44,982 nucleotides of DNA. Origin: Candidatus Altarchaeota archaeon (GTDB taxonomy: Archaea; Altiarchaeota; Altiarchaeia; IMC4; QMZM01). The notes under the pieces are model-generated. The model ran no database searches, was not told where the DNA came from, and saw only the letters and a program-made list of their open reading frames with translations. The DNA lies in the NCBI GenBank assembly GCA_016931955.1, contig JAFGDV010000017.1, forward strand, positions 1-44,982, given 5' to 3'. The position numbers and the translations under genes were made by a program. How positions within the stretch are numbered: position 1 is the first letter of the stretch; each line of letters begins with the position of its first letter. Below, piece by piece: positions 4,115 to 44,095 of this stretch.

Positions 4115-5106
4115 AACAATATCACCTCACCTCTGACGGGAGCTATTGGCTCTAACTCCTTGAAGTTGATGGCTGATAAAAGCGTTGAATAATTGGTTTT
4201 GATTCCTTTTTCTTCCAATGCCGCGAAAATAGACTCACTGCCAACCAAGACAAGACCACAATAACCAGCCCTCGTTGGCACCCCAAGAAGATTATCGCCA
4301 TAGGAGCCGACTACCACTATACCGCCGATTATGTCCACAGTCTTCCTCAGCAAACTTATAACCCTTGCCCGGGCAGTGTATGGTATTTCACAATACTCTG
4401 CTAGAACACTTCCACCCCCCTTAGTGACGCAGTCATAGACCTGCACATATTTATGTCTTATAAACATCTCCCACGGATCAAAGGAAACACCTGAACCTGA
4501 AACGAATTTTGTGCATTTAACCGGATTCCAATTCTTGACCTCTAATATGGTGCTGTTTCCAAAATGCATAAAAACCCCATTATTAACTAAGATCTGATCC
4601 ATCACAGTAGCTGTGCTCAGCACAGCTAAACCAAACATTCCTTCAGGTACTACCCTATTACAGAGTCTCTCCCCTGAGTGGGCAGTTTTCACAAGAGGAG
4701 ATAAAAGACCACTCTGACAGATTTCACCTAAAATTTCCATGACTTTATCTTCCTTACTTCCCTTAATCATCACCAATGAAACTATAAGCTCGCCACGCTG
4801 CCTATTTAAATCAAATCTTGTGTCTGTTACCATTCGCGCGATTAAATCAAAAACAAAATCAGAGTGAGCATAAATAAAAGACGTCTTAAGTTCGTCTCGG
4901 CCTTTTTCTGTGATCTTCCTGCCTTCTTTCCCGAACGGCTGAGTGAAGCCCTGCTTGTCGAATTTCTGTAAATAGTTGCGGATCATGCGGTCAGTTAAAC
5001 GAATACCTATGTCAACTAGTTCGGCCTTAATTTCATTAGACGTCAGCGGCTTATTATTCTTTTCAAGCACGGACAAAATCTCGAAGACATTATGCTCTCG
5101 CTTCAC
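4111..5106 (-). CDS. NrpR-like transcriptional regulator, copy 4 (array gene 2)
   Basis: A 331-residue protein. The winged helix (VFEILSVLEKNNKPLTSNEIKAEL; TDRMIRNYLQKFDKQGF) is followed by one NrpR/DUF128-like domain with VVPEGMFGLAVLS, GGIVVVGSYGDNLLGVPT and FKELEPIAPVRGEVILL. The start is a GTG overlapping the upstream stop as GTGA, with GGTGAGGTGA just before it. The first residues (MKREHNVFEIL) are identical to copy 2, which points to recent duplication or gene conversion inside the array. The effector half is more divergent than the HTH half, as expected if ligand sensing has changed while DNA recognition was kept. Confidence 0.82.
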   Translation of the reverse strand: MKREHNVFEILSVLEKNNKPLTSNEIKAELVDIGIRLTDRMIRNYLQKFDKQGFTQPFGKEGRKITEKGRDELKTSFIYAHSDFVFDLIARMVTDTRFDLNRQRGELIVSLVMIKGSKEDKVMEILGEICQSGLLSPLVKTAHSGERLCNRVVPEGMFGLAVLSTATVMDQILVNNGVFMHFGNSTILEVKNWNPVKCTKFVSGSGVSFDPWEMFIRHKYVQVYDCVTKGGGSVLAEYCEIPYTARARVISLLRKTVDIIGGIVVVGSYGDNLLGVPTRAGYCGLVLVGSESIFAALEEKGIKTNYSTLLSAINFKELEPIAPVRGEVILL

Positions 5107-7003: not shown

Positions 7004-7200
7004 TCACAGCAACAAAAACTCGCCACAGACGGAGGCAACCGATTCAAGCTCCCTGAAGTCCATCATAGTGCACAAAAACATGAAAATATGTGCAGTACAT
7101 TTTATCCACAGCCCAACCCGGATCCGATCCCGCCCGACATCATAGGCCGATTATTCCTCTCCAACACAGACAAGATCTCGAAGACTTTGCGTTCCTTCAT
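7004..7200 (-). pseudogene. Relic of a seventh NrpR-like gene (internal deletion)
   Basis: On the minus strand, ATG 7200 opens MKERKVFEILSVLERNNRPM, nearly identical to the N-terminus of the array's first gene. The reading then diverges (MSGGIG...) and stops at 7102. At 7066-7004 a second segment reads MDFRELESVASVCGEFLLL-stop, clearly the family's conserved C-terminus (FRELEPIAPVKGEVILL). About 290 codons between them are missing and replaced by roughly 70 unrelated bases. The leader upstream keeps the TATAR-N11-CTAA element. This is a decayed paralog, probably the original lead gene, now separated from the array by the toxin-antitoxin pair. Confidence 0.75.
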
Positions 7201-7340: not shown

Positions 7341-8801
7341 ATGATGCATTGGATAATGGCGGCCGTGGTAGGATTCTTCGCCATAATAATATTGGTAGGC
7401 TTATACCTCTCCAAGTCAGTGAAGGGGAGAAGCGAAAACTACATAGTAGCAGACAGAAAACTGATCCTCGGAGTAACAGCGGCAACGCTGACCGCCCAAA
7501 GCATCGACGCAGACATAACACTGGGGTTGACGAATTTCACCTTCCAATACGGTTTCTGGTCGGGTGCGGCAATGATCCTGGGCCTAGGCGGCGCACTAAT
7601 CCTGATAGGATTATTCTTCGCCGAACCACTGAACAAGATGAAACTACTCACACTACCAGACTTCTACCGGAAAACCTACGGAAGACACATGGAAGCCATG
7701 GTATCCATGCTAATGGCCCTAAGCGCCTCAATATTCATCGGCGGATGCCTCGTCGCCCTAGGCTTCATCTTCCAAAGCTTCCTCGGAATACCCTACTGGC
7801 CCGCCATAATACTCGTCTCGGCAGGCATACTAACATACACTATGGCAGGCGGCCTGGTCTCAATATCCAAGACAGACATCATACAGTTAGTCTTCGTTCT
7901 ATTAGGAGCAGCAGCCCTCATGTTCATCGTATTAGATTATGGATTACTATCCAACATAACACAGGGAATAGAAAACCCGAGCAAGATGCTGGACTCGAAC
8001 ACGGGTCCGGCAGTCAACATAGCGATCCTACTGGCCCTAGGGTTAGGGAACATTGTCGCAATAGACTTCATGGAGCGCGTATTCGCGACCGACAAACCAG
8101 AAACATCCAAGAAAGCATGCTACATCGCAGGAATAGGGACCATACTCATAGGGATACCCTTCATCCTCGTAGGAGTGTCCTCCAACAGCCTATTCACTGA
8201 ATTAGACATCCCAGTCAACCCAGACGCTGAGCCCGTGCTGCTGACCTTCCTATCCAATGTGCAGCCTCAGATCCTTACTTACCTGATCCTGTTGGGGCTT
8301 ATCGCGGCCGCCGTGTCTACGGCAGACGGATTGATTCTGGCGGCCTCCTCTATAACCTCCCACAACCTGCTGGGGTATAAGCCAGGTTCTTTGAATAAGA
8401 GAGGAGACCGGCTGCTGTACATGTCGAGGCTGTGCATGATACCTGTTCTCGCATTCAGCATAGTGTGCGCCATCACCCTGCCCTTCCCAGGCACGCTAAT
8501 AATACTATCATTCGACATACTGCTCTCCGGGGCAGCTATTCCATTCATACTGGGGGTGCACTGGAAGAAAGCCAACAAGCCGGCGGCCATCGCATCCTTT
8601 GTGGCGGGAGTGCTCACACGCCTCCTCCTCTTTGTGCTGACGCCGACCTTCTACGGCATAGAGAACAACATACTGTTCATAGAAGGCTTCCTAACACCAG
8701 CCTTCGATGGAGTGCCGACCATCCTATCACCCCTCATCGGCTTGGTGGTCTTCGTCGCAGTCGCCTCGATAACGCAAGAAAACAACATAAAGACGGGCTA
8801 A
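7341..8801 (+). CDS. Sodium:solute symporter (SSS family)
   Basis: A 486-residue polytopic membrane protein with about 12-13 hydrophobic segments. It has the SSS layout: a first helix followed by YIVADRKL, then LTAQSIDADITLGLTNFTFQYGFWSG, a GLFFAEPLNKMKLLTLPDFYRKTYG loop, and the core helix with LIAAAVSTADGLILAASS, the region that coordinates sodium in this fold. It imports an unidentified organic solute with sodium. ATG 7341 (or the next codon) is preferred over the ORF-track start at 7266, because a TATA box (ATTTTTATAA, 7291-7300) would place transcription after 7266. The neighbours are NrpR-like regulators on both sides, so it may be one of their targets (inference). The last 4 bases overlap the convergent regulator. 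Confidence 0.85.
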   Translation: MMHWIMAAVVGFFAIIILVGLYLSKSVKGRSENYIVADRKLILGVTAATLTAQSIDADITLGLTNFTFQYGFWSGAAMILGLGGALILIGLFFAEPLNKMKLLTLPDFYRKTYGRHMEAMVSMLMALSASIFIGGCLVALGFIFQSFLGIPYWPAIILVSAGILTYTMAGGLVSISKTDIIQLVFVLLGAAALMFIVLDYGLLSNITQGIENPSKMLDSNTGPAVNIAILLALGLGNIVAIDFMERVFATDKPETSKKACYIAGIGTILIGIPFILVGVSSNSLFTELDIPVNPDAEPVLLTFLSNVQPQILTYLILLGLIAAAVSTADGLILAASSITSHNLLGYKPGSLNKRGDRLLYMSRLCMIPVLAFSIVCAITLPFPGTLIILSFDILLSGAAIPFILGVHWKKANKPAAIASFVAGVLTRLLLFVLTPTFYGIENNILFIEGFLTPAFDGVPTILSPLIGLVVFVAVASITQENNIKTG

Positions 8802-9793
8802 TAGAGTAATAGACCGCCTCTCAATTCAGCGATCGGTTGAAGCTCATTGAAGTCCATGCTCGCCTCCACCGTCGTTGTGTTCGTTTTTATGTTACGCTCT
8901 TCTAGAGCAGACAACAGAAGTTCTCCGCCGAATCCAACTATTCCAGTATAGCCCTCCTTGGTCTTTAAGCCGAGCACTTCAGACCCTGTTCTGCCGATAA
9001 CGACCAAGCCGCCGAAGACGTCGACGAACTCTTTCAGTACTTTAAGCGCCCTCAGCCTGGCTGTTGAAGGTATCTCCCTGTAGTCGGCTGGTATGCCCCC
9101 AAGATTCTTCTTCACTGCCTCATAGACGCTGCCCATCCTGTTCGAGATAAAGATCTGGAGAGGGTCTATGGAGCTTCCCTCATAGGAGATCAGTTCAGTG
9201 AATCTCTTCGGCTTATGTTCTAGGAACTCAATAAGGCCGCCGTAGAGGGGGTTCACATAGATCCTCTCATTCAGGAGTACTTCCTCTATCGTCACACTCG
9301 ATATGGTGGCTAAACCGAACATGCCCTCAGGAACCTCTCTATTGCACAGGTTATCCCCCTGTCTCGCTGTTTTTATGAACGGGGGAGTCAGGTTTATTCC
9401 ATCGCAGATTTCCTTGAGTGTTTTTATGGTCTCATCCTCCTGGTCTTCTTGGATGAATGAAAGATTCACTATGACGTCGCCCTTCCCCCTCTCCAAGTCG
9501 AATCTAGTATCCGTGATAAGCCTGACGATCCTATCCAGTATGAAATCCGACCTACCAAAGATGTAGGCCTTCTTCAGCTCTTCCCTCCCAAGCTCGTTTA
9601 TCTGTCTCCCGGATCTGCCGAGTTTTCGGGTGAAGCCCATCCCATCAAGGGATTCCATATAGTTTCTGACCATCCTCTCAGTCAGATCAATACCGATATC
9701 ATGTAGTTCGTCCCTGATCTCTCCAGAAGTCATGGGCTTGTTCGCCCGATCCAACGCAGACAAGATCTCGAAGACGTTTTTTTCTTTGGTCAT
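8798..9793 (-). CDS. NrpR-like transcriptional regulator, copy 6 (single gene)
   Basis: A 331-residue protein. The winged helix is VFEILSALDRANKPMTSGEIRDEL with TERMVRNYMESLDGMGF. The single NrpR-like effector domain has VPEGMFGLATISSVTIEEVLLNE, GGLVVIGRTGSEVLGL and a divergent C-terminus, FNELQPIAELRGGLLLY. It is transcribed alone from its own TATA box (9823-9827) and is convergent with the symporter gene. The effector half groups by eye with copy 5 rather than copies 2-4. It is a candidate regulator of the symporter or the DMT transporter beside it, with no direct proof. Confidence 0.82.
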   Translation of the reverse strand: MTKEKNVFEILSALDRANKPMTSGEIRDELHDIGIDLTERMVRNYMESLDGMGFTRKLGRSGRQINELGREELKKAYIFGRSDFILDRIVRLITDTRFDLERGKGDVIVNLSFIQEDQEDETIKTLKEICDGINLTPPFIKTARQGDNLCNREVPEGMFGLATISSVTIEEVLLNERIYVNPLYGGLIEFLEHKPKRFTELISYEGSSIDPLQIFISNRMGSVYEAVKKNLGGIPADYREIPSTARLRALKVLKEFVDVFGGLVVIGRTGSEVLGLKTKEGYTGIVGFGGELLLSALEERNIKTNTTTVEASMDFNELQPIAELRGGLLLY

Positions 9794-9829: not shown

Positions 9830-10714
9830 CTATTTTCGGACGATGAGGTAGTTGGATAACAGGATCAATGCTCCGCCGGCTACTATGTTCAAGGTAATAG
9901 GCTGCTGGAAGAATACACAGGCGAGGAGGGTCGCGCTGATGGGTTCAAGGGGCATGATAACGCCCGCCCTAGAAGCCGACACAAAATCCAAGCCAGTATA
10001 GAACAATGTGTCGGGGATGATGAAGGCGACAAAAACATAGAGAAAGAAGAAAACAGGATACATTAAAGGAAAACCAAGAGAGAAACCGATGATGCTGGAA
10101 TCGTTCACGAAAAAAGACAATACAGGGAAAAACAACAACAGCCAGAAGAGGGGGAAGACCATGGAAGCAAATGTTGTCGTAAAATGATGCTGTTTATGTA
10201 GTTCGCTTTCTCTGCTGTAGATCACCCAAAGAGACAAGAAGACCCCGGAGAGTAGGGCGAGGAATAGCCCAAAGTTACCCGCTACGCCGCCGAAGAGCCG
10301 AGGATCCACTACTATGAAAACCCCCACGAAACTCAAAAGGATGGCTGAAAGCTTGTCTCGGGTGACTGGCTCCCCTAGGAATGGCTTCGCGAATAAGACA
10401 GTCCACAGAGGCTCCGTGTACAGGAGAAGTACTGCTACAGCAATTGGGACGCCTAAGACGATGGCACCGAAACAGGAAAGCTGGAGAAGACATCCAATAA
10501 GACCATAACCGAGGAAAAACAGGAACATACCCTTCTGGATCATGTACTGTCTCCTCAAAAGGAGGACGGAAGACATGAACAAGGAACCGGAGAGGAAGGT
10601 GTAGAAGGCGATCTCGTAGAGAGAGAAGCCAAGCTCTTTGAAGAACTGGCAGCCTACGGATATGAAGCCATAGAATACGGCAGCCAGCATGACAAAGGAG
10701 TAACCCTCGCGCAT
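9830..10714 (-). CDS. EamA/DMT-superfamily transporter
   Basis: A 294-residue protein with about ten hydrophobic helices in two EamA repeats. The first repeat runs from FVMLAAVFYGFISVGCQFF to LLLYTEPLWTVLFAKPFLGEPVTRDKLSAILLSFVGVFIVVDP. The second ends in SASRAGVIMPLEPISATLLACVFFQQPITLNIVAGGALILLSNYLIV. The PLEP and YTEP segments are typical of the drug/metabolite transporter family, whose members export or exchange metabolites. The substrate is unknown. A TATA-like GTATTATAGC at about 10718-10727 lies too close to ATG 10714 for a standard leader, so ATG 10690 (MLAAVFYG) is a possible alternative start. Confidence 0.82.
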   Translation of the reverse strand: MREGYSFVMLAAVFYGFISVGCQFFKELGFSLYEIAFYTFLSGSLFMSSVLLLRRQYMIQKGMFLFFLGYGLIGCLLQLSCFGAIVLGVPIAVAVLLLYTEPLWTVLFAKPFLGEPVTRDKLSAILLSFVGVFIVVDPRLFGGVAGNFGLFLALLSGVFLSLWVIYSRESELHKQHHFTTTFASMVFPLFWLLLFFPVLSFFVNDSSIIGFSLGFPLMYPVFFFLYVFVAFIIPDTLFYTGLDFVSASRAGVIMPLEPISATLLACVFFQQPITLNIVAGGALILLSNYLIVRK

Positions 10715-11074
10715 AAGCTATAATACAACGAAGGAGGTAAAAAACTTGACGGTTTCGGAAGAACCATTGAGTTATGGAAGGGGGTTTCCGTTTGCGGGGA
10801 CCAAAACACCCATTTTAAGGAACTTTAGAGTATTTATATCATCTTACTGCATAACATCCAGCATCATAGAACCCCAATACATATAAAAAAAGGATTTGTC
10901 TGGCTTATTTCCATTTCTAAGGCTGTCTGTGGCTGAATCAAGGCGGTAATGGGTTTCCGTAAGCTTTTTAAAGGCATGATACAGATATTAAGATTACATA
11001 GGGGCTTGTGAAAAAAAGGGTGCGCCCACGGAAAATACGGTGGGCGCATCCCTTACAAAAAAAAGGTGATTTAA
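10715..11074. other. 360-base intergenic region with leader elements and a possible small ORF
   Basis: This is the longest gap without a confident gene. A strong AAGGAGGT (10731-10738) precedes a TTG-initiated 46-codon reading frame (10746-10886, MTVSEEPLSYGRG...), which has no recognisable homology and is doubtful. GGGTTTCCGT occurs twice (near 10785 and 10951). A TATA-like CTTTTTAAAG at 10964-10973 fits the promoter of the small gene at 11075, and a strong hairpin follows at 11016-11054. Confidence 0.35.
11016..11054 (+). promoter_or_regulatory. Stable 5'-leader hairpin before the small AbrB-like gene
   Basis: AAGGG-TGCGCCCAC (11016-11029) pairs with GTGGGCGCA-T-CCCTT (11040-11054): 14 pairs with one bulged T and a loop of about ten bases. 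It lies between a TATA-like site (about 10964-10973) and the AGGTGAT ribosome site of the gene at 11075. It could act as a 5'-UTR control element or an attenuator. It matches no riboswitch class I know. Confidence 0.5.
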
Positions 11075-11260
11075 GTGAACCGAAAATTTGTTGGGGTGTT
11101 CTCGATAGACGGTTCAGGTAACGGCATCATAGAGGTAACGGAAGAATCCTTAGGGATAGAGGATGGCGAAGAAGTGAGTATCCTATGGGAGAGATCAGGC
11201 AAGGCTGAAACGCTTAAGGACGTCGTAGATGGAGAGAACGTTATACATCCCCCTGCTTAG
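11075..11260 (+). CDS. Small AbrB/SpoVT-like protein (hypothetical)
   Basis: A 61-residue product starting at GTG 11075 with a good ribosome site (AAGGTGAT) eight bases upstream. The stretch IIEVTEESLGIEDGEEVSIL resembles the swapped-hairpin strand-loop-strand of AbrB/MazE-type DNA-binding proteins (IxIPKEIRxxLGIxEGDxVEI). The last 66 bases overlap the 3' end of the convergent HTH-CBS gene, an unusually long convergent overlap. It is either a real small regulator preceded by a hairpin leader or a fortuitous ORF. The ribosome site and the AbrB-like pattern favour a real gene. Confidence 0.45.
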   Translation: MNRKFVGVFSIDGSGNGIIEVTEESLGIEDGEEVSILWERSGKAETLKDVVDGENVIHPPA

Positions 11261-12253
11261 GTCCACTACGTAGTGGTTGTGTTCGAAGCCATCCCCCTTC
11301 TTAAACAATTGCAGAAGGGTTGTATCCCCTGATATGATCTGGCCTCGTTCTATGGGAGTCATTATCTGCTCCACAGTGGTCTCCGCAAGAAAGCCCACAT
11401 TACCCAGGTTACTGCCTATCTTGTTCATTACGTTCTTCGTCGTTATAATACCCTTCGGCTCAGTGGAGAAGGCTATCACGAAATCGTTTGTGTGTAGGAT
11501 CCTCAGAAGCTTATGCGCTGAATCCCTCAGATCGGCTATAGGAACGGTCTCCGTAGTAAGATCACTCAGAGGGAGCTTCCACATGTCATGAATCCACTTC
11601 TCAATGGAGTTCTCATATTCCTTAAGGAATCTGTCGAAGATTTCATGAAGCCTTACGCCGTCCTCTGTCAGATGGTAGTCTCGCCCCTTGATGCCGAAGA
11701 TGCTTATCTTGGTGTCCCCGATCCTTATCTTTCTCGTCGAGAGGTGATAGCGTAGGGTGCTTGCTGGTAGATAGCCGTGGGCGCTCCGATACATGTCACC
11801 TATCTCGTTGAATTTTCTCGGCTTCATCATCAGCACATGTATGAGTATGTTGCTCACGTTGTCGAAGAACAGTTCAGAGAACACGTTCGCCGTATTCTGT
11901 AAGTCTTTGTCGTTTATCTTCCCGTCCTTCGGCTTATCCCCCACGAGGTCCAGTACCTGTAGGGCGGTCTCTGAGAGCAGGCGGAAAAATATGTCATTCT
12001 TTAAGACGTAGGTCTTCTCCACCTTGTCTACTATGTTGTGGTTCCTTAGCAGGGAAAGGGATTTGCTCACCACGAAGCTCTGCACATCCCTTAGGCTTCT
12101 GCGTATTTCGCGGACCTCCATTTCTTTTTTCTCATCGAGGAGGAACATTATCTTGCACACAGGCGACTGGGAGAATATGCTGAGCAGGCTTCCTATGTGT
12201 TCGTATGTGTAGCCGAACCTGCTGAGCTTTGAGATGTTGTATCCCTTTGGCAT
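11195..12253 (-). CDS. Winged-helix regulator with C-terminal CBS-like pair
   Basis: A 352-residue protein. An N-terminal winged helix (about 20-105; SPVCKIMFLLDEKKEMEVREIRRSL...VSKSLSLLRNHNIV) is followed by a second helical, possibly wHTH, module (about 120-215; NILIHVLMMKPRKFNEI...ASTLRYHL...YHLTEDG). A C-terminal segment (about 235-352) looks like a degenerate CBS pair (LLRILHTNDFVIAFSTEPKGIITTKNVM; VEQIMTPIE...DTTLLQLFKKG...YVVDLSRGMYNVLSIYDVLKRF). It is likely a DNA-binding sensor of an adenosyl nucleotide or a phospho-signal. It is divergent from the next regulator across a shared nested dyad, so mutual or autoregulation is likely. Confidence 0.6.
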   Translation of the reverse strand: MPKGYNISKLSRFGYTYEHIGSLLSIFSQSPVCKIMFLLDEKKEMEVREIRRSLRDVQSFVVSKSLSLLRNHNIVDKVEKTYVLKNDIFFRLLSETALQVLDLVGDKPKDGKINDKDLQNTANVFSELFFDNVSNILIHVLMMKPRKFNEIGDMYRSAHGYLPASTLRYHLSTRKIRIGDTKISIFGIKGRDYHLTEDGVRLHEIFDRFLKEYENSIEKWIHDMWKLPLSDLTTETVPIADLRDSAHKLLRILHTNDFVIAFSTEPKGIITTKNVMNKIGSNLGNVGFLAETTVEQIMTPIERGQIISGDTTLLQLFKKGDGFEHNHYVVDLSRGMYNVLSIYDVLKRFSLA

Positions 12254-12288
12254 TTTAAGTCAGATTTGATGCAATTTTTCGGAATATT

Positions 12289-12336
12289 ATTACATGTGCA
12301 GTCAAGATTAAAAAACTATTCTTGACAAAATGTAAT
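12289..12336. promoter_or_regulatory. Nested dyad operator between two divergent regulators
   Basis: ATTACAT (12289-12295) and GTCAAGA (12301-12307) are mirrored by TCTTGAC (12320-12326) and ATGTAAT (12330-12336). The two nested 7-base inverted repeats surround an AT-rich 12-base centre. They lie between the promoters of the genes at 12253 (minus) and 12399 (plus). Confidence 0.55.
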
Positions 12337-12370
12337 ATATTGTAATTAGATGGTTTACTTTCTGTTAGGT

Positions 12371-12377
12371 ATATAAG
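12371..12377 (+). promoter_or_regulatory. TATA box for the tandem-HTH regulator
   Basis: ATATAAG lies 22-28 bases before ATG 12399, the spacing expected for a leaderless archaeal transcript. This argues for ATG 12399 over the GTG at 12381 given in the ORF track. Confidence 0.5.
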
Positions 12378-12398
12378 CCTGTGAGAGTAATTTATACC

Positions 12399-13436
12399 AT
12401 GCTGAAGCTCACAGAACGAGAGAAGAAGGTCTTCTACGGCCTGATAAGGTGGCCGGAGCTGACAGACAAAGAGCTTTCAGAGAAGCTAGGTATTGGAAGG
12501 TCAACGGTAACCACAATAAGGAACCGATTAGAGGGACATGATTTATACAAAACGATAAACGTCCCCGACTTCGAGCGTATAGGCTGCGAGGTCTTCACCG
12601 CACTGTATGGAGAATACCATCCGAAAGCAAGCTACAGCAAGATCAGAGAAGACATAGAAAAAGAATTCGGTAGCATGTTCTTCATGATGTCGATGGGCGT
12701 CCACAAGCTCTCACTGGGGGCGTCAAAAACCTTCACCGAGGTAAAGAAGCACATAGAGGAATACCACCTCAGACACCACGAGATAGGGGTCTCATATGAG
12801 AAAAAACACACCTACGTTCTATTTCCGCTAAAACTGAGCAGGATCTTCAGGTTCTTCGACTACTCTCCGCTGCTGAAGGAACACTTCAAGCTGGATATAG
12901 AGGAAGAAGGAGAGAAAGGGGATGAGAGGAAGATAACGCTAACCAGAAACGAAAAAGAAGTGTATCACGCATTGATAAGGCATCCTGAGCTCACGGATGG
13001 GAAAATAGCCTCAAAGACTGGGATGAGCAGGCAGACAGTAAGCGCGATAAAAAAGAAGATCATGGAGCATGGGCTCATAAAGAGGATAAGGGTACCAGAT
13101 GTTGGGAAGCTCGGATTCGAGCTGCTGGCGTTCACGCACATGCACATGAACCCCAAGATGCCCATAGAAAAGAGGAGTGAAGGAATAGAGCTGATGATGG
13201 AAAGCCCGGCGAACATACTCAAAGTCTCAGGAAACCTGGAAAGCATCATGCTGTCCGTATTCAAGGACTACACTGAATACCTGAATACGTATGATAAACT
13301 GTTCTCATACTACAAGGAAAACGATTTCCTGTTAGAGGAGCCCACGGTCAAGATATTCTCCACCAGGGAGGCGGACTTGGAGATGCACCACCGCTATCAT
13401 CCCCTCGTAGAAAGTGTCTTTATGTCGACTGAATAG
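12399..13436 (+). CDS. Duplicated winged-helix (Lrp/MarR-like) regulator
   Basis: A 345-residue protein made of two similar halves. Each has an HTH (LTEREKKVFYGLIRWPELTDKELSEKLGIGRSTVTTIRNRL and LTRNEKEVYHALIRHPELTDGKIASKTGMSRQTVSAIKKKI) followed by an alpha/beta sensor-like segment (INVPDFERIGCEVFTALYGEYHP and IRVPDVGKLGFELLAFTHMHMNP). An internal duplication is evident, with a charged linker near residue 175 (EEEGEKGDERK). It probably binds a long or doubled operator, and the nested dyad 60-110 bases upstream is a fitting site. The 3' end overlaps the convergent PheT-like gene by 40 bases. Confidence 0.7.
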   Translation: MLKLTEREKKVFYGLIRWPELTDKELSEKLGIGRSTVTTIRNRLEGHDLYKTINVPDFERIGCEVFTALYGEYHPKASYSKIREDIEKEFGSMFFMMSMGVHKLSLGASKTFTEVKKHIEEYHLRHHEIGVSYEKKHTYVLFPLKLSRIFRFFDYSPLLKEHFKLDIEEEGEKGDERKITLTRNEKEVYHALIRHPELTDGKIASKTGMSRQTVSAIKKKIMEHGLIKRIRVPDVGKLGFELLAFTHMHMNPKMPIEKRSEGIELMMESPANILKVSGNLESIMLSVFKDYTEYLNTYDKLFSYYKENDFLLEEPTVKIFSTREADLEMHHRYHPLVESVFMSTE

Positions 13437-14227
13437 ATGGCTCCGCCCATGTCAGCTAAGGCGTATACGAGGATGTTCAAAGCCTGGTTTATAGCGTTTT
13501 CATCCATTCCAGTGACATCGATGAATAGATCAGTAGTGTCATAGGTCACCCTAGTAAGTTCGCCATTGATTATCGGGGGAAAGGAGAGAACATCATTGTT
13601 TCGGTCGACTATGATGGGATACCTGTCGCAGGATTCAAGAGTCCAGGCGTAGTCCACGCCCTTAGGATGATCTCTGAGGATCTGCTGCAGATTCATCCTC
13701 TCGCTCATGTCTAAGGGAACGAAGGAAATCTCTGTAGGCTTAACCGCTTTGTAGAGGAAGGGAGGCACCACCTTGCTTAGGTCGTGGACTCCGATGGCTA
13801 CCTTCTTGCGCTTTCTCCCATGCGTTATGTGGAGTTTCTCCTGCAGGTCCATCAGGGAGACCAGTTTTCCCTCATCAAAGCACAGGTTTCTCACAACGGC
13901 GGAGGTGACATATGGTCTGACTGAGGAAACGGAGGGATCCACCCTTAGCTGGATCCCCGAGTCTTTAAGGTGGATCTCACTGAATCCAGTCTCCAAGCCA
14001 AGTTTGCCCTTCAATGCTCTAGCAAAACCTTCAACTGAGAGGAGGTCAGGCCTGTTCGGGAAGACTTCCAAAGAGATCTTCTCTGTGTCTATGTGTTCTA
14101 AGTCGACGCCCAGCATGGATATCTCGTTCCTCAGATTCTCTGGCTTGTATTCTCTTCCAAGAAGGGATACAAGCTCCTGGAAACTAAACTCGACTGAAGG
14201 CATGTAATTTATAGTGTTTTCATCCAT
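13397..14227 (-). CDS. Stand-alone N-terminal half of PheRS beta (B1 + B3/B4 editing region)
   Basis: A 276-residue protein matching the first half of archaeal phenylalanyl-tRNA synthetase beta (full length about 550). MPSVEFSFQELVSLLG is the usual archaeal start, followed by EVFPNRPDLLSVEGFARAL and the B3/B4 editing region with VVRNL, DLQEKLHITHGRKRKKVAIGVHDL and FPPIINGELTRVTYDTTDLFIDVTG. The frame then stops after GGAIYSVDIKTL; no B5 or catalytic-like core follows, and the DNA downstream is the end of a convergent gene. It could be a trans-editing factor or a truncated pheT whose normal copy lies elsewhere. An open frame of this length favours retained function. The start may be ATG 14203 (MPSVEF) rather than 14227. 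Confidence 0.7.
   Translation of the reverse strand: MDENTINYMPSVEFSFQELVSLLGREYKPENLRNEISMLGVDLEHIDTEKISLEVFPNRPDLLSVEGFARALKGKLGLETGFSEIHLKDSGIQLRVDPSVSSVRPYVTSAVVRNLCFDEGKLVSLMDLQEKLHITHGRKRKKVAIGVHDLSKVVPPFLYKAVKPTEISFVPLDMSERMNLQQILRDHPKGVDYAWTLESCDRYPIIVDRNNDVLSFPPIINGELTRVTYDTTDLFIDVTGMDENAINQALNILVYALADMGGAIYSVDIKTLSTRG
14207..14215 (+). promoter_or_regulatory. TATA box for trkH
   Basis: AATTTATAG lies about 25-33 bases before ATG 14240 and fits a leaderless trkH transcript. It falls inside the first codons of the divergent PheT-like ORF as annotated from 14227, so the two genes share almost no spacer. Confidence 0.4.
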
Positions 14228-36986: not shown

Positions 36987-37505
36987 ATGGCGGTTAAAGT
37001 CTTCGCAAAACTGGGGGACATAACAAGGGAGAGGGCTGACGCTATCGTAAACCCGGCTAACTCCCTCGGCGTTATGGGCGGCGGCGTGGCGTGGGCTATC
37101 AAGAGTAAAGGAGGAACCGAGATTGAGAAGGAAGCCGTTGAGAAGGCCCCTACGCCGGTAGGCAAGGCCATTGCGACAACAGCTGGTAGATTGCCTGCCC
37201 GCTTTGTGATACATGCACCTACCATGAGTTCCCCAGCCCAGAGAATAGGCATAAAAAACATTGAGAAGGCGACGTATGCTGCTCTTGAGTGTGCCTCCAG
37301 GCTTGGGGTTAAGTCGATAGCCTTTCCTGGGATGGGTACTGGGGTGGGTGGTGTTTCGAAGAGGGATGCTGCGGAAGCCATGATAAGATCGGTTAAGGGG
37401 TTTATAAGCTCGGAGCTTTCTGGTCTTGATAGTATTTCATTGATAGCGTTCGACCGTGAGTTGTTGGAAGCGTTTGAGGTGAGCCTGAAGGATGCTGGAA
37501 TGTGA
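36987..37505 (+). CDS. Macro-domain (ADP-ribose-binding) protein
   Basis: A 172-residue single macro domain. LGDITRERADAIVNPANSLGVMGGGVAWAIKSKGG holds the NPAN and GGGVAxAI ligand loops, and SIAFPGMGTGVGGVSKRDAAEAMI the distal phosphate loop (usually GIGTGVGG). It likely hydrolyses or binds ADP-ribose derivatives such as ADP-ribose-1''-phosphate or O-acetyl-ADP-ribose. The last 14 bases overlap gatD, so the two are translationally linked. Confidence 0.92.
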   Translation: MAVKVFAKLGDITRERADAIVNPANSLGVMGGGVAWAIKSKGGTEIEKEAVEKAPTPVGKAIATTAGRLPARFVIHAPTMSSPAQRIGIKNIEKATYAALECASRLGVKSIAFPGMGTGVGGVSKRDAAEAMIRSVKGFISSELSGLDSISLIAFDRELLEAFEVSLKDAGM

Positions 37506-38766
37506 GCCTGGTGATTGGGTCGAGATAGAAACCGAGGATGGGAAATACACAGGAATCTTAATGGAAAGACCAGAGTTAGCTGGTGATAAGCATATGGTAA
37601 TAAAACTGGAATCTGGGTACAACATAGGAATAAAGAAAGACAAAATCAAGAAGATACGGAAGATTAGCACAAGAATAAGGGAAGAATTCAAGCTAAAAAA
37701 ACACGAAAGGGATCCCTCAAAGAAGGACATCTCAATCCTGGCTACAGGCGGAACCATAGCAAGCAGAGTAGACTACATAACAGGCGGTGTGCATTCAGCG
37801 TTCTCAGCGGAGGAACTAATCTCAGCCGTACCGGAGCTGGGGGAAATAGCAAACGTACAAGGAAGGCAGATATTCAACAAATTCTCTGAAAACGTTGCCC
37901 CCACTGATTGGGTCACAATAGCGGAAGCCGTCTATGAGGAGATAAAGAAGAAAGCCTCTGGTGTGGTGATAACGCATGGAACGGACACCATGGGTTACAC
38001 CTCAGCAGCCGTGGCATTTATGCTCCAAACTTCAGTTCCTGTGGTTTTAACTGGCGCACAGAGAAGCTCTGATCGAGGAAGCAGCGACGCAGCCACGAAC
38101 CTCATACACTCAGCGATCGTTGCATCTTGCGGAAATTTCTCCGAGGTTGTGGTAGTAATGCACGCCGAAAGCTCAGACTCATACTCTTTTATACATCCGG
38201 CGACGAAGGTAAAGAAGCTGCATTCCAGTAGAAGAGACGCCTTTAAGACGGTGAACACGAAACCCCTCGGCAGGGTTTTCAGGGAGGGGGTAGAGTTCAT
38301 GCAGGAGGTTAAGAAAGACAAGGAACTAACATTAGACACTAAATTGGATGAACAGGTCTTTTTGCTTAAGTATTTCCCCGGGCTTAAGCCCTCAGTAATA
38401 GATTCTCTCGTAGATGGCGGCTATCATGGGATCGTGTTGGAGGGGACCGGCTTAGGGCATACCGCGGAGGGGCTTTTCGAAGGGATACGAGAAGCAATAA
38501 ACAGCGATGTAGTGGTTGCAATGACCTCTCAGACCATCTTTGGCAGGGTTAACATGAACGTCTACTCCACCGGGCGCATCCTGTTGGATACTGGAGTAAT
38601 ACCCTGCGAGGACATGCTTTCGGAGACGGCCTATGTGAAACTCATGTGGGTCCTAGGGCACACAAGAAAGCCAGACAAGGTAAGGGAGATGATGCTAACA
38701 AACTATGCGAGAGAAGTCAGTGAGAGAAGCATTTTCACTCACAAGAACTCAAGGAAAAACCAGTAA
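37492..38766 (+). CDS. gatD: Glutamyl-tRNA(Gln) amidotransferase subunit D
   Basis: A 424-residue asparaginase-like subunit of the archaeal GatDE complex, which releases ammonia from glutamine or asparagine so that GatE can convert Glu-tRNA(Gln) to Gln-tRNA(Gln). An N-terminal SH3-like segment (about 5-50; CEPGDWVEIETEDGKYTGILMERPELAG) is followed by the amidohydrolase: ISILATGGTIASRVDY (nucleophile Thr), VVITHGTDTMGYTSAAVAFML, VVLTGAQRSSDRGSSDAATNL and HTAEGLFEGI. GatE is absent from the window. The 3' end overlaps the convergent permease gene by 28 bases. Confidence 0.96.
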   Translation: MLECEPGDWVEIETEDGKYTGILMERPELAGDKHMVIKLESGYNIGIKKDKIKKIRKISTRIREEFKLKKHERDPSKKDISILATGGTIASRVDYITGGVHSAFSAEELISAVPELGEIANVQGRQIFNKFSENVAPTDWVTIAEAVYEEIKKKASGVVITHGTDTMGYTSAAVAFMLQTSVPVVLTGAQRSSDRGSSDAATNLIHSAIVASCGNFSEVVVVMHAESSDSYSFIHPATKVKKLHSSRRDAFKTVNTKPLGRVFREGVEFMQEVKKDKELTLDTKLDEQVFLLKYFPGLKPSVIDSLVDGGYHGIVLEGTGLGHTAEGLFEGIREAINSDVVVAMTSQTIFGRVNMNVYSTGRILLDTGVIPCEDMLSETAYVKLMWVLGHTRKPDKVREMMLTNYAREVSERSIFTHKNSRKNQ

Positions 38767-39980
38767 ACAACGAAGTTTATAAGAGTCAGAGGCAGTCCGA
38801 CCCGGGAGAACTCTGTAAAGGAGATGGTTTCGCCCGCTTTTTTTTCCGCATTCTGTATCACTATAACGTTGCTAGCAGCTCCTAGGATTGTTAGGTTTCC
38901 TGCGATGGTGCTTCCAGCAGCCAATGCTATCAATCCCGTCTTCGACACACTGGAGTGGAGCAGCAGCGGCAGATACAGCATAACAAGTGGAACATTTGAT
39001 ATCAGTTGGCTGAGGAGGGCGCTTATCAATAAAATAGCTTCATTCGAAGTCGGATCGAAGCCCGCGCCCTCAATGAATCCCTGGAAGAAGTTCGAATCCC
39101 AGACACTCTCCATGAGCACGAACATTGCCGCAAAAAAGATCAGCGTATGCCAGTCGATTTTCTTAGCTATCTCAAACCTTTTAGTGCTTAACGCAAGCAC
39201 CGGCAAGGCAGCAATGAGGGCGATGTACGTAAGTTTTAGATCGACGTTAACCTCAAGGAAGACCGCAGCCACCTTAACCACCACCAATAGGATGATCAGG
39301 ATAAGAGAGAACCGGCAAATAGCGGCAAGTCCAGGGTCTATGATCGGTTCCCTGTAGTGATTCAGAGGATTGTCGTGGAAGTGCTCACGGTAGAAGAACT
39401 TCAACACAAAATAAGCCAAGAATAGATTTATTATCGTTGGAATCAGCAGAAAAAAGAAGAAGTCGACGAATGGATTCTCCATACCCCCATTGATGGCTAT
39501 CAGAAGGTTCTGGGGGTTACCTATAGGGCTCATGACGCTGCCAATAGTCACGGCAAAGCAAAGGGAAAGCAGCAGAATCTTGGGGGGCATGTTATGCTTC
39601 TTCGCGAGCAGAAGGACAACTGGCGTGCCTATTATGGCTAAGGTGTCATTCATCAATAACGCTGAGGAGATGCCAACCACGAAGAGGATGGAGAGCACAA
39701 GGGTGTCAACTGATTTCGCTCGCCTAAAAAACCTATAGGAGATGTGTGAGAGGTAGCCGCTTTCCTCGAGGGCCTGACCTACAACAAACATACAGAAAAG
39801 AAACACCATGACATCGGGGTTTATTGAATTCAGGGCATCTGCGGGCGTTATCTGTCTCGTAAACAATACCGCGAGAGCCCCGAAGAGCATTATCTGCCAT
39901 ATACGGAGATTGATGCCGCCTGTCCTCCTTACAGCGATCAGAAGGAGAACCACGATGAGGATCAATACAGGGATTTCCAC
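38739..39980 (-). CDS. ArsB/NhaD (ion transporter)-superfamily permease
   Basis: A 413-residue protein with about 11-12 helices. The two re-entrant motifs of the superfamily are visible: SSALLMNDTLAIIGTPVVLLLAKK with GSVMSPIGNPQNLLIAING in the first half, and SQLISNVPLVMLYLPLL with GSTIAGNLTILGAASNVIVIQNAEKK in the second. These mark the DASS/ArsB/NhaD ion-transporter fold. The substrate may be an anion, arsenite or Na+/H+. It is the third gene of an operon (methyltransferase/ATP-grasp, SdpI-like, permease), with an 18-base gap to the SdpI-like gene. Confidence 0.85.
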   Translation of the reverse strand: MEIPVLILIVVLLLIAVRRTGGINLRIWQIMLFGALAVLFTRQITPADALNSINPDVMVFLFCMFVVGQALEESGYLSHISYRFFRRAKSVDTLVLSILFVVGISSALLMNDTLAIIGTPVVLLLAKKHNMPPKILLLSLCFAVTIGSVMSPIGNPQNLLIAINGGMENPFVDFFFFLLIPTIINLFLAYFVLKFFYREHFHDNPLNHYREPIIDPGLAAICRFSLILIILLVVVKVAAVFLEVNVDLKLTYIALIAALPVLALSTKRFEIAKKIDWHTLIFFAAMFVLMESVWDSNFFQGFIEGAGFDPTSNEAILLISALLSQLISNVPLVMLYLPLLLHSSVSKTGLIALAAGSTIAGNLTILGAASNVIVIQNAEKKAGETISFTEFSRVGLPLTLINFVVYWFFLEFL

Positions 39981-39998: not shown

Positions 39999-40631
39999 TT
40001 ATTCTTCTTTCCGGTATTCGAGATAGGAGTAGACTACGGTGTAGGCTGTAACCAGCAGCACTGGAGCGAGGATGAAGTACATTGCATAGTCCGGTAGAAG
40101 AACTCCAGCAAGCGCTATCAATCCAGCGGCTTTGAACAGTTTTCCGCCTATTCGGTGGGTTTTCTCCCACACGCGGTCGCTGCTCAGCGTCCAAGGCGTC
40201 CTGATCCCGATGAACCAGTTCCTCTTAGCGTTCTCTATCAGGATGCCGCAGTAATAGAATAACCCGGCTAAGGCGGGGGACAGCACAAGGTTCATATTCA
40301 GCCTGGTTCCGAGATTCCATAGGAGGATTATCACGTGTATGTAGAAAAGGAACAAAACAATTAATACGACGAAAATGTCATAGTATTTCCTGAATTCTTG
40401 GATGTTCTTCTTTAGGGGATCGATTTTTGGGATTAGAATGAACAGCACAAGCAATCCCGCCAATATTACTGGTATGAGGAAGATACTCCATACCTTGGGC
40501 ATGTAGCCGTCGACCTCCCACCTAGCGTTCCAGTGAGACGCCATCCTGTCCGGCATCTGAGGGTAAAGCCAGACACCTAAGGCAAAAGCCAATACGATCA
40601 ATCCCAAGGCCATGTATTCGCTTCGTCTCAT
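39999..40631 (-). CDS. SdpI/DUF1648-family membrane protein
   Basis: A 210-residue protein. The N-terminal DUF1648 domain has the first helix plus MPDRMASHWNARWEVDGYMPK, and two or three further helices follow. The SdpI signature is KRNWFIGIRTPWTLSSDRVWEKTHRIGGKLF (about 140-170). In Bacillus, SdpI gives immunity to a secreted killing peptide and sequesters a repressor. In archaea the role is unknown. It starts 13 bases after the stop of the methyltransferase/ATP-grasp fusion, which makes an immunity or envelope role linked to that enzyme's product an attractive guess. Confidence 0.85.
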   Translation of the reverse strand: MRRSEYMALGLIVLAFALGVWLYPQMPDRMASHWNARWEVDGYMPKVWSIFLIPVILAGLLVLFILIPKIDPLKKNIQEFRKYYDIFVVLIVLFLFYIHVIILLWNLGTRLNMNLVLSPALAGLFYYCGILIENAKRNWFIGIRTPWTLSSDRVWEKTHRIGGKLFKAAGLIALAGVLLPDYAMYFILAPVLLVTAYTVVYSYLEYRKEE

Positions 40632-40644
40632 TGCAGTTCCACTT

Positions 40645-42654
40645 TTAATAAGCAGTTGGTTTCTTATCCACTAAGGTCATCTGTGCCTTGTCCTTCAAAT
40701 GCTCTTCCTCTAAGCGCACCCTCAGCCTATGCTCTGCGGACTTCAGGATGGATGCGAGCATCTCGGAGTATTTCATGCCAATGGCCTTCGCCATCTTAGC
40801 CAGATGCCCGTCCCAGCACCATCCGGGGTTGGGGTTGACCTCAAGCAGCTTCGGCTTCCCATCAGAATTCAGTCGCCAATCGAACCTGCAGTAGTCCCTA
40901 CACTCAAGCCGCTCGAACAATTTCAGGCAGCATTCGACCACGAACTTCTCCGTATCCTCCGGGAGGTTGGCTGGGATGGATTTTATTTTCCAGTAAGGCG
41001 AGTCCGGAAGCCACTTGGCCTCGTATCCACATATCTTCGGCAGATCAGAGGGCAGCTCTGAGTAGTCTTCTTCCGTGATCGGCAGAACCGTGTAGGATTC
41101 GGGTGGATTTCCTATGATGCCGACGCTGATGTCGTTCCCTGTCAGAAATTCCTCGATGATGAATGGTTTGTCGTAGCCGAATTTTTCCCTGATGTTGGAG
41201 ATGGCGTTGACGAGTTCTTCACTGTTGCTGGCTATGCTCTTCTGGGTTATCCCGAAGCTCGAGTCGCCGAAGTTCGGTTTAATTATTACCGGAAAGCTGA
41301 AGGGCAGCTCAAATGTGCTGTCCTCAGGCTTGATGAATAAGCCCTTGGGCACTGGGATACCCATCTCCTCAGCGATTCCGCGGACGAGGGATTTGTCGTA
41401 GCAGAAGGCGAGACACTGCGGCCCAGAGCCCGTATATGGGATGTTGAGCATCTCAAGCAATGCTGGAACGTGAAGCTCTTTTCTGGCGTCGTTGTTGTAT
41501 CCCTCATCGCAGAGGTTGAAGATGAAGTCTATCCTACCCTTTATCTTCATCATGTCATGTATCAGTGAGTCGTGGTTGTTCAGATAGACGAACTTGTAGT
41601 TCTTGTTTTCCCTCAACGCAGCCTTCAGTTGGTCGATTGTATAAAAGTCGTCTTCGTCGAATACGCAGCAAGGTTTTAGTGGATCTGGCTTGCTGTAGTC
41701 ACCCAAGACCACGGCAACATTCCTGACAGCCGCCTTCGGTTTTCCTCTAACAGGAGACCACTGCTTTTTCACCACAGCGGTCACAATAAGCCTGCGCTCC
41801 ATCATTCCAAGATCCTGGGCCCTCTGTGATTCAGTCGCTATCCCCCCATTGAACTCTACGTTACTGAAGCCCGCGGTCTTCAGGAACCTATTCAGGTCTT
41901 CCTTGTTGTAGAGGCGTTCAGCGTAGAACTGGTCTGCGATGACCCCCTTGTTTACGTGGGATATGACCTCTCTTGAGATTAAACGTTCTCCGTCTACGGA
42001 GAGGGAGCGCTCCCGGCAGACGAAGTATTTCTTGTCTATCCACTCCCAGGAGCGGGGCTGAAAGTTCTGCTTCATGTGTTCGCCGTCTGCTACATCAATA
42101 AGGAGCCTGCCCCACGGCTTCAGGACCCTGAAGATCTCCCTCAGAACCTTCAGGTCGTCTTGGGAGTTTTCGAAGTATCCGAAGCTGTTCCCGAGAATCA
42201 TCACGACGTCGAACGTATCAGCTGGGTAGGGGATCTTTCTTGCATCGCCTTCCTTGAATTTCACTGGTAGGACGTCGCGTTTTGCGTCAGCCTTTGCCTT
42301 CTGTATCAGGTAATGTGATCTGTCCAGTCCTTCAACGTTCTCGAATCCGCGCCTCGCGATTTCGAGGGAATGTCTTCCTTGGCCGCAGGCGAGGTCTAGG
42401 ATCCTGCTCTTTGGTGAAGGCTTAAGGATGTCGAGAAACATGTCAATCTCTCTGCTGGTTATGTTCTGGTCGTCAACTACATCCGAGTCCGTTTTCAGGT
42501 ACATTGAGTTGAAGATGTAACGCCACCAGTCTGAACGGACGTGTTCTTCGAGATTTAGTACCGGCCCCAGAACCCCCCTCTGGTGTTTGCCGTTTCCCTT
42601 GCTTTGACGGCCTTTCTCCTTTGTTGAATCCCGCTTCACTTCTAAACAACCCAT
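40645..42654 (-). CDS. Fusion of SAM methyltransferase and D-Ala-D-Ala-ligase-like ATP-grasp
   Basis: A 669-residue two-domain protein. The N-terminal half is a class I methyltransferase (SRILDLACGQGRHSLEIARRGFENVEGLDRS at about 80-110; VLREIFRVLKPWGRLLIDVADG). The C-terminal half (from about 310) is a D-Ala-D-Ala-ligase-like ATP-grasp enzyme: FNLCDEGYNNDARKE, SFPVIIKPNFGDSSFGITQKS, FIIEEFLTGNDISVGIIG and DYCRFDWRLNSDGKPKLLEVNPNPG. It probably ligates an amino acid or peptide and methylates the product or its precursor. The TTG start of the track (42705) lies upstream of a TATA box (about 42685-42692), so ATG 42654 is used. Two membrane-protein genes follow in the operon. Confidence 0.85.
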   Translation of the reverse strand: MGCLEVKRDSTKEKGRQSKGNGKHQRGVLGPVLNLEEHVRSDWWRYIFNSMYLKTDSDVVDDQNITSREIDMFLDILKPSPKSRILDLACGQGRHSLEIARRGFENVEGLDRSHYLIQKAKADAKRDVLPVKFKEGDARKIPYPADTFDVVMILGNSFGYFENSQDDLKVLREIFRVLKPWGRLLIDVADGEHMKQNFQPRSWEWIDKKYFVCRERSLSVDGERLISREVISHVNKGVIADQFYAERLYNKEDLNRFLKTAGFSNVEFNGGIATESQRAQDLGMMERRLIVTAVVKKQWSPVRGKPKAAVRNVAVVLGDYSKPDPLKPCCVFDEDDFYTIDQLKAALRENKNYKFVYLNNHDSLIHDMMKIKGRIDFIFNLCDEGYNNDARKELHVPALLEMLNIPYTGSGPQCLAFCYDKSLVRGIAEEMGIPVPKGLFIKPEDSTFELPFSFPVIIKPNFGDSSFGITQKSIASNSEELVNAISNIREKFGYDKPFIIEEFLTGNDISVGIIGNPPESYTVLPITEEDYSELPSDLPKICGYEAKWLPDSPYWKIKSIPANLPEDTEKFVVECCLKLFERLECRDYCRFDWRLNSDGKPKLLEVNPNPGWCWDGHLAKMAKAIGMKYSEMLASILKSAEHRLRVRLEEEHLKDKAQMTLVDKKPTAY

Positions 42655-42793: not shown

Positions 42794-44095
42794 ATGTTTA
42801 TCGGAGTAGACGACACTGACTCGTTGAAGGGTGGCTGCACCACCTACTTGGCTGCTTTGCTTTGTGATAGCTTAGGGGTTACTGGTTATCCTAAACTTAT
42901 CCGTTTAAACCCTAACATACCCTATAGAACACGCGGTAACGGTGCAATAGCATTCCAAGTTGAAGGTGATGCTGGGAAGATAGAAAAGACGACACTTGAT
43001 CTGGTGAAGAAACACGCTCAACTGGGGGATGATAACACTAACCCTGGGGTAGTGTTCATCCATGAATTAACCCCAGAGCAGAGGAAGAGGCTTGAAGGAT
43101 TCTACCTGAAGACTGTATCGGAGCTGGTCACCTTAGAGGAAGCTGAAAGTGTTGCAGCCGAAGTCAACGCAGAAGTCCATAGGTTCAAGAACGGCCGTGG
43201 CGTCATCGGTGCGCTGGCGGCGGTAGGTTCAAAATTACCCGACAAAACATATGAGCTTATAGCTTACAGGGTGAAGAGGAACTATGGGAAAGAAAAGAGC
43301 GTAGATGAGGAGTCAGTTTACAAGATGGACAGAGAAACATACCCTGAAACCTTCGATAATATAGATCCTGATAAGAAACAGATCCTTATCTCACCTCACG
43401 GATATGATCCAGTGCTATGCGGCATACGCGGCGATTCCGTCGAGGTTGTCCGCCGCGCCTGGAAGCTGCTGAAGGTTTCCGAGGAGGTTGAACGCATCCA
43501 GGTGTTTGAGACCAATCAGGGAACAGATGCGCACTTGAGGGATAGGCGGATATCTGAACTGAAGCCTTACGATTGCGTGATTATCGAGGGCGAGGTGATC
43601 ATATCACCTCAAGACATCGAGGGCGGGCATGTGTTGTTCGGTTTATCTGATGGCTCTGGGAAGATTGCTTGCGCCGCCTATGAACCAACCGGTGACTTCA
43701 GAAAAGTTGTAAGGAAGCTGGCGGAGGGGGACAGGATTCGGGTTTTTGGCGGCATAGGTAAGCATCCGAACACATTGAACCTGGAAAAGCTGCAGGTTTT
43801 GGAGTTAGCCAGGTTGTGTGAGAGGATCCCTCCAGAGTGCTGCGGCAGGAGGATGACCTCGGCTGGAGCAGGTAAGGGTTTTAAGTGCAGGAAGTGCGGC
43901 AAAAAGGCTGGGATGGATGCGGTCGTCTTGAGGGAGGTGGGGAGAGACCTTGGTCCTGGGTTATATGAGGTTCCTCCGAGGGCTAGAAGGCATCTTAGTA
44001 AGCCACTTGTCAGGTTCAGGCAGCCTAAGGGCAGATTTAATTCCCTGAAATCCAAGTTATTTAAGGTGATGAGAAGAGGGTCATCTGAGCCTTAG
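42794..44095 (+). CDS. tiaS: tRNA(Ile2) 2-agmatinylcytidine synthetase
   Basis: A 433-residue archaea-specific enzyme that attaches agmatine to C34 of tRNA(Ile2) so that it reads AUA. MFIGVDDTDSLKGGCTTYLA is the family's start. RTRGNGAIAFQV, NTNPGVVF and FKNGRGVIGALAAVG belong to the catalytic domains. ETNQGTDAHL marks the linker, followed by an OB-fold (DCVIIEGEVIISPQDIEGGHVLFGL) and a zinc ribbon (CCGRRM-(n)-CRKCGKK). The start is ATG 42794 with a GGTGAG site. The 16-codon extension in the ORF track crosses the TATA box. Confidence 0.95.
   Translation: MFIGVDDTDSLKGGCTTYLAALLCDSLGVTGYPKLIRLNPNIPYRTRGNGAIAFQVEGDAGKIEKTTLDLVKKHAQLGDDNTNPGVVFIHELTPEQRKRLEGFYLKTVSELVTLEEAESVAAEVNAEVHRFKNGRGVIGALAAVGSKLPDKTYELIAYRVKRNYGKEKSVDEESVYKMDRETYPETFDNIDPDKKQILISPHGYDPVLCGIRGDSVEVVRRAWKLLKVSEEVERIQVFETNQGTDAHLRDRRISELKPYDCVIIEGEVIISPQDIEGGHVLFGLSDGSGKIACAAYEPTGDFRKVVRKLAEGDRIRVFGGIGKHPNTLNLEKLQVLELARLCERIPPECCGRRMTSAGAGKGFKCRKCGKKAGMDAVVLREVGRDLGPGLYEVPPRARRHLSKPLVRFRQPKGRFNSLKSKLFKVMRRGSSEP

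Follow-up and report, generated by a model that had tools for sequence, protein, structure and literature searches.

The locus analysed here raises the question of what might be made by a single archaeal protein that joins a SAM methyltransferase to an ATP-grasp ligase of the D-Ala-D-Ala ligase (Ddl) fold, and whether the two membrane-protein genes beside it take part. The stretch of DNA analysed, referred to here as the window, comprises 44,982 nt of contig JAFGDV010000017.1 (GCA_016931955.1) from a Candidatus Altarchaeota archaeon. The coordinates of the features discussed are given in Table 1.

Table 1. Coordinates of features in the window and at other loci.
Locus	Feature	Positions	Strand	Basis or remark
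Window	Fusion gene, SAM methyltransferase + Ddl-fold ATP-grasp ligase, 669 aa	40645..42654	-	ORF, Pfam, ~80 fusion loci, AlphaFold model
Window	N-terminal tail, residues 1-28; charged, disordered, poorly conserved	42571..42654	-	Alignment, AlphaFold model
Window	Methyltransferase half, ~residues 40-295	41770..42537	-	Pfam, alignment, structure matches
Window	ATP-grasp ligase half, ~residues 310-643	40726..41727	-	Pfam, structure match, DdlB alignment
Window	Putative TATA-box-like element CTATAAAAT, ~35-40 bases 5' of the start codon	42685..42696	-	By eye
Window	SdpI-like membrane protein (DUF1648 + SdpI)	39999..40631	-	Pfam; possibly co-transcribed in the window
Window	CitMHS/ArsB-like permease	38739..39980	-	Pfam; possibly co-transcribed in the window
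Window	gatD, Glu-tRNA(Gln) amidotransferase subunit D	37492..38766	+	Conserved left border of slot
Window	tiaS, tRNA-Ile2 agmatidine synthetase family	42794..44095	+	Conserved right border of slot
L041 (Cloacimonadota MAG)	attC-like sites either side of fusion	5016-5098 and 7053-7138		
L027 (Methanophagales MAG)	attC-like sites either side of fusion	746-826 and 2816-2892		
L155 (archaeon of the window's order)	Tandem Ddl-like ATP-grasps + lysine 2,3-aminomutase family gene	10708-13941		
L161	Single Ddl-like ligase + KamA	7547-9777		

The fusion gene is a single intact ORF on the minus strand that runs from an ATG at 42654 to a stop at 40645, with 0 internal stops. Pfam analysis placed Methyltransf_25 (PF13649) at residues 85-182 (74 bits, cut-off 27) and Dala_Dala_lig_C (PF07478) at residues 447-637 (97 bits, cut-off 24), which bears out the reading of two catalytic domains in one chain made in an earlier note on this DNA. 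The AlphaFold model of the whole protein had a mean pLDDT of 84 and a pTM of 0.71, with values below 50 for residues 1-26. Because about 80 further fusions were found at 61-73% identity, and given the mean pLDDT of the model, the fusion is neither a chance event nor an assembly artefact. On either side lie gatD and tiaS, both members of archaeal families, and the fusion is therefore not a stray bacterial sequence. An Rfam search of the window gave no match.

Members of the family were collected by scanning named bacterial and archaeal genomes with two peptide patterns, so that their count is a lower bound. At least 80 fusion loci were obtained in the above identity range, these being the best 80 of 130 confirmed stretches; every one of the 80 encodes the fusion, a few being cut by contig ends. 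The rows of the tree included 22 named phyla, together with unplaced members, from both bacteria and archaea. Carriers include Atribacterota, Planctomycetota, Thermodesulfobacteriota, Actinomycetota, Spirochaetota, Bacteroidota, Jordarchaeia and Nitrososphaerota, among others; one member, a thermophilic homologue, comes from a Thermodesulfobacterium MAG. Bacteria account for the majority of the members found, and the archaea-specific framing given to the gene at the outset did not hold. In the window's own class, the fusion was present in only two of the 29 genomes searched, several of which are incomplete: that of the window and G016, where the gene is divided between two contig ends. It was absent from the remaining genomes of the window's genus and family in that set. 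At 70% identity, it occurs in two archaeal genomes that are much farther removed. Outside the family, identity to the ligase half falls to about 37% or less. All 20 fusion genomes tested have one close copy each (62-76% identity).

The two halves are similarly conserved, with mean pairwise identities of 68% and 69%, and their divergence is correlated (Mantel r 0.72, with 0 of 999 permutations as high); they therefore evolve as one unit. An alignment of 70 fusion sequences contains approximately 100 invariant columns, and the family signatures include NLCDEGxxN, GPQCLAxCYDKSLVRG, CGYEAKW and LEVNPNPGWCWDGHLAKM. The window copy differs from the 90% consensus at six positions only. The fusion is thus a real and tight protein family, and identity at this level across bacteria and archaea implies strong selection on its product wherever the gene is carried. 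Searches of open-licence papers yielded no description of a methyltransferase-ligase fusion and no characterised member; this is apparently a strongly conserved, one-gene, two-activity enzyme that has gone uncharacterised. Two loci (L021, starting at 2143, and L023, starting at 7989) have a longer ORF, in which a second, incomplete copy of the N-terminal ~50 residues of the fusion lies upstream of the first.

In the METHYLTRANSFERASE half, the family conserves motif I (LDLxCGxGRH) and the acidic residue that binds ribose, with G91, G93 and D111 invariant. This half also contains a GNSFGYFE loop and an invariant WEW at residues 203-205. As judged from its sequence, the N-terminal half is a class-I SAM methyltransferase. 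The best solved structure match was 9ri2, itself named a putative methyltransferase, followed by various small-molecule enzymes, glycine-sarcosine N-methyltransferases among them; the glycine-sarcosine N-methyltransferase model NF051855 gave 61 bits against a cut-off of 350. Because the similarity of this half extends to many small-molecule methyltransferases, and its top match is only putative, methylation of an amine is proposed tentatively. Known anti-phage defence systems were also considered and set aside, as PADLOC gave no specific match for the fusion; only the methyltransferase region matched (mad2, 68 bits).

The ligase half of the model matched the Ddl of B. anthracis (3r5x) with an E-value of 1.5e-21 and a TM-score of 0.81 by target (Foldseek), and the 50 structure matches listed were all Ddl-type enzymes, aligning to about half of the fusion chain. 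The 81 ligase halves were aligned to E. coli DdlB and read against the known functional roles of its residues. The equivalents of K97, K144, E180, K215, R255, D257, E270 and N272 are kept in 80-81 of 81 sequences (K421, K459, E501, K547, R590, D592, E605 and N607 in the window). Three other positions, Tyr216, Ser281 and Leu282 in DdlB numbering, are Trp, Gly and His in 81 of 81 (W548, G616 and H617 in the window); in DdlB, the first belongs to the D-alanine triad, and the other two keep the second D-alanine in place. The Glu15 loop of DdlB could not be aligned with confidence; a conserved acidic FDDDD stretch lies nearby (residues 332-336) and may take the place of Glu15. Since the catalytic residues are kept and the D-alanine pocket is changed, the C-terminal half is most likely an ATP-dependent amide or peptide ligase and not a D-Ala-D-Ala ligase. 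The active-site residues, which the earlier note had wanted checked for loss, are thus retained, and its expectation of a product other than D-Ala-D-Ala is probably correct. Four cysteines in this half (C382, C418, C542 and C613) vary little or not at all among family members, with a possible metal or structural role.

To see which genes accompany the fusion, 120 adjacent genes of other loci were tallied by Pfam. They contained 153 families, the commonest of which occurred in four proteins, and no conserved partner gene was present in this tally. An AstE/AspA amidohydrolase-like gene directly adjoins the fusion at three loci from three phyla (L032, L073 and L087), and two of the three genomes concerned have one clear copy of it. 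This adjacency fits amide metabolism, the three loci having been picked out after many families had been viewed. The Mg2+ transporters CorA and MgtE, which recur at a few loci, were rejected as partners, since isocitrate dehydrogenase and ArsR turn up about as often and the transporters do not rise above background. No shared upstream element was seen, except among near relatives and in a leader common to three loci described below. At one of these three (L022), a cobalamin riboswitch (RF00174, 68.5 bits) lies downstream of the fusion at 4403-4612 and probably serves the next gene.

These neighbourhoods also bear on whether the fusion acts on a macromolecule and, for instance, attaches an amino acid to a protein tail, a polyamine or a lipid and methylates it. 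ATP-grasp families are generally known to include protein- and peptide-tagging enzymes, as in a survey of graspetides (PMC8939145), and a deoxyhypusine-synthase-family gene lies near the fusion at five loci. However, because isocitrate dehydrogenase recurs equally often, as do other unrelated metabolic families, that count is not above background. No conserved target gene stands beside the fusion, and the solved structures nearest to it are those of Ddl enzymes, whose substrates are free amino acids. We consider a macromolecular substrate unlikely, although it is the strongest of the alternatives to a small-molecule product.

Slightly less probable again is that the ligase half uses beta-lysine or another beta-amino acid, with the fusion adding methylation to that chemistry. 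The closest unfused ligases found, at 36-37% identity, form a tandem Ddl-like ATP-grasp pair adjoining a KamA-type gene in an archaeon (G020), and a more distant ligase relative in G071 also stands beside KamA. The tandem pair has the EAKW motif, and the Tyr-to-Trp change that it has in common with the fusion suggested a beta-amino acid substrate. Against this, 17 of 24 fusion genomes, that of the window included, have no KamA-family match, and KamA did not recur among the fusion's neighbours in the Pfam tally.

The two membrane-protein genes of the window were the basis of the operon proposed in the earlier note, in which the fusion, the SdpI-like protein and the permease would form one pathway for the synthesis, protection and export of a natural product or an envelope modification. 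The arrangement itself was confirmed by the ORF coordinates and Pfam: 13 bases separate the fusion from the SdpI-like gene and 18 bases separate that gene from the CitMHS/ArsB-like permease gene, all on one strand, so co-transcription in the window is plausible. The 3' end of the permease gene shares 28 bases with the convergent gatD, and tiaS lies upstream of the fusion and is divergent. In relatives, however, the three genes are apart. The SdpI and permease homologues of G004, G015 and G016 lie on different contigs or far from one another; in G004, SdpI is near gatD, with neither the permease nor the fusion beside it. In G007, G009, G012, G016, G018 and G021, gatD and tiaS are close neighbours with a gap of ~0.9-1.9 kb, and the gap holds other cargo, which by eye is a lipoprotein-like gene, a ferritin-like and antiporter-like pair, or an ATPase-like gene. 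In each slot compared, the main cargo gene is read in the opposite direction to gatD and tiaS, as are the permease, SdpI and fusion genes in the 4 kb gap of the window. The fusion-positive G016 has the ATPase-like gene in this slot and carries its fusion elsewhere, and other fusion loci have different neighbours. As the cargo differs between relatives, the gatD-tiaS gap is a variable slot and the trio is a lineage-specific assembly. Thus, of the conservation that had been proposed for checking, that of the fusion was found in both bacteria and archaea and that of the gene order was not; the three genes are unlinked in every relative examined, the outcome named beforehand as speaking against the operon, and a common pathway is now very improbable. 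A tight-looking archaeal operon can therefore have come together at a variable slot in a single lineage, which is a warning for guilt-by-association.

The least credible alternative, and in our view a nearly negligible one, is that the protein is a genuine D-Ala-D-Ala (or D-Ala-D-Lac/D-Ser) ligase to which a methyltransferase has been joined. The fold and the retained catalytic residues speak for it; against it stand the uniform pocket replacements, scores of 132 bits at best in NCBIfam Ddl models with cut-offs of 243 or more, the other Ddl-family genes (~30% identity) that bacterial carriers have, and the archaeal hosts, since archaea lack murein.

The fusion has the patchy distribution expected of a mobile gene, which suggests mobility. 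In the Cloacimonadota and Methanophagales MAGs (L041 and L027), attC-like sites with a GTTAG-type core and paired arms lie on both sides of the fusion. Three of the four sites fold better than their shuffles and the fourth does not. A crude attC scan over all loci gave no signal above shuffles, and integron cassette status is therefore suggested for these two loci only. The host assignment of L027 is weak because its contig is only 3.5 kb; integrons are known from archaea (PMC9668308). A leader that follows the attC-like site is common to L041, L027 and L022, from three phyla, and their fusion proteins are 76-80% identical. One pattern-based scan of viral contigs found no relatives of the fusion, phage records gave only ligase-half matches (36% coverage), and plasmids gave only unfused rhizobial ATP-grasps at about 30-34%; a methyltransferase gene near one of the latter is only generically similar.

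The tree placed the window fusion beside Deltaproteobacteria, and several separate transfers into archaea were considered. An AU test did not reject a single clade of the ten archaeal members (L027 left out; p 0.70), and the position of the window is thus no proof of a separate transfer. As it stands, the tree neither shows nor excludes several such transfers.

Taken together, the best explanation, which we hold with middling confidence, is that the fusion is a self-contained two-step small-molecule enzyme and a single accessory unit, to which the two adjacent membrane-protein genes of the window would be unrelated. With ATP and Mg2+, the C-terminal half would convert a carboxylate into an acyl phosphate and couple it to an amine, in Ddl-like chemistry on substrates other than D-alanine. 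The N-terminal half would use SAM to methylate either one of the partners or the product, the acceptor most likely being an amine, as in glycine/sarcosine-type methyltransferases. Both halves would then serve one pathway, and the product is most likely a methylated amino-acid or dipeptide-like conjugate, which could have an intracellular role such as that of a solute, protectant or metal ligand. A bolder version, in which the fusion alone makes a novel conjugate of this kind and has been widely traded across 22 or more phyla, partly as an integron cassette, is possible but doubtful. Since a single gene may be enough, the product could be revealed directly by metabolomics after expression in E. 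coli.

Several known systems resemble parts of the fusion. Its C-terminal half is like Ddl (E. coli DdlB, 3r5x) in fold, ATP and Mg binding and catalytic residues, but is only ~25% identical, has the D-alanine pocket replaced, falls below every NCBIfam Ddl cut-off and is joined to an extra methyltransferase. The KamA-linked tandem ligases of G020 have the EAKW motif and the Tyr-to-Trp change in common with it, but have neither a methyltransferase domain nor the NPNPGWCWDGHLAKM signature. Glycine/sarcosine N-methyltransferase and related class-I enzymes share the class-I domain and are among the matches of the N-terminal half; the fusion differs from glycine/sarcosine N-methyltransferase in scoring far below the curated cut-off, in its invariant WEW region and in carrying a ligase. 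As an analogy of chemistry only, carnosine synthase is an ATP-grasp dipeptide ligase that acts before an N-methyltransferase, the two working in sequence to give anserine. The second step is that of carnosine N-methyltransferase (PMC3660329). These enzymes are separate animal proteins, whereas the fusion is one chain. In the synthesis of mycosporine-like amino acids, MysB, MysC and MysD are a methyltransferase, an ATP-grasp enzyme and a Ddl-like ligase. In principle, methyltransferase and ligase activities are there likewise directed at one small molecule; however, they are separate genes of a conserved cluster, and the fusion stands without such a cluster, as one gene.
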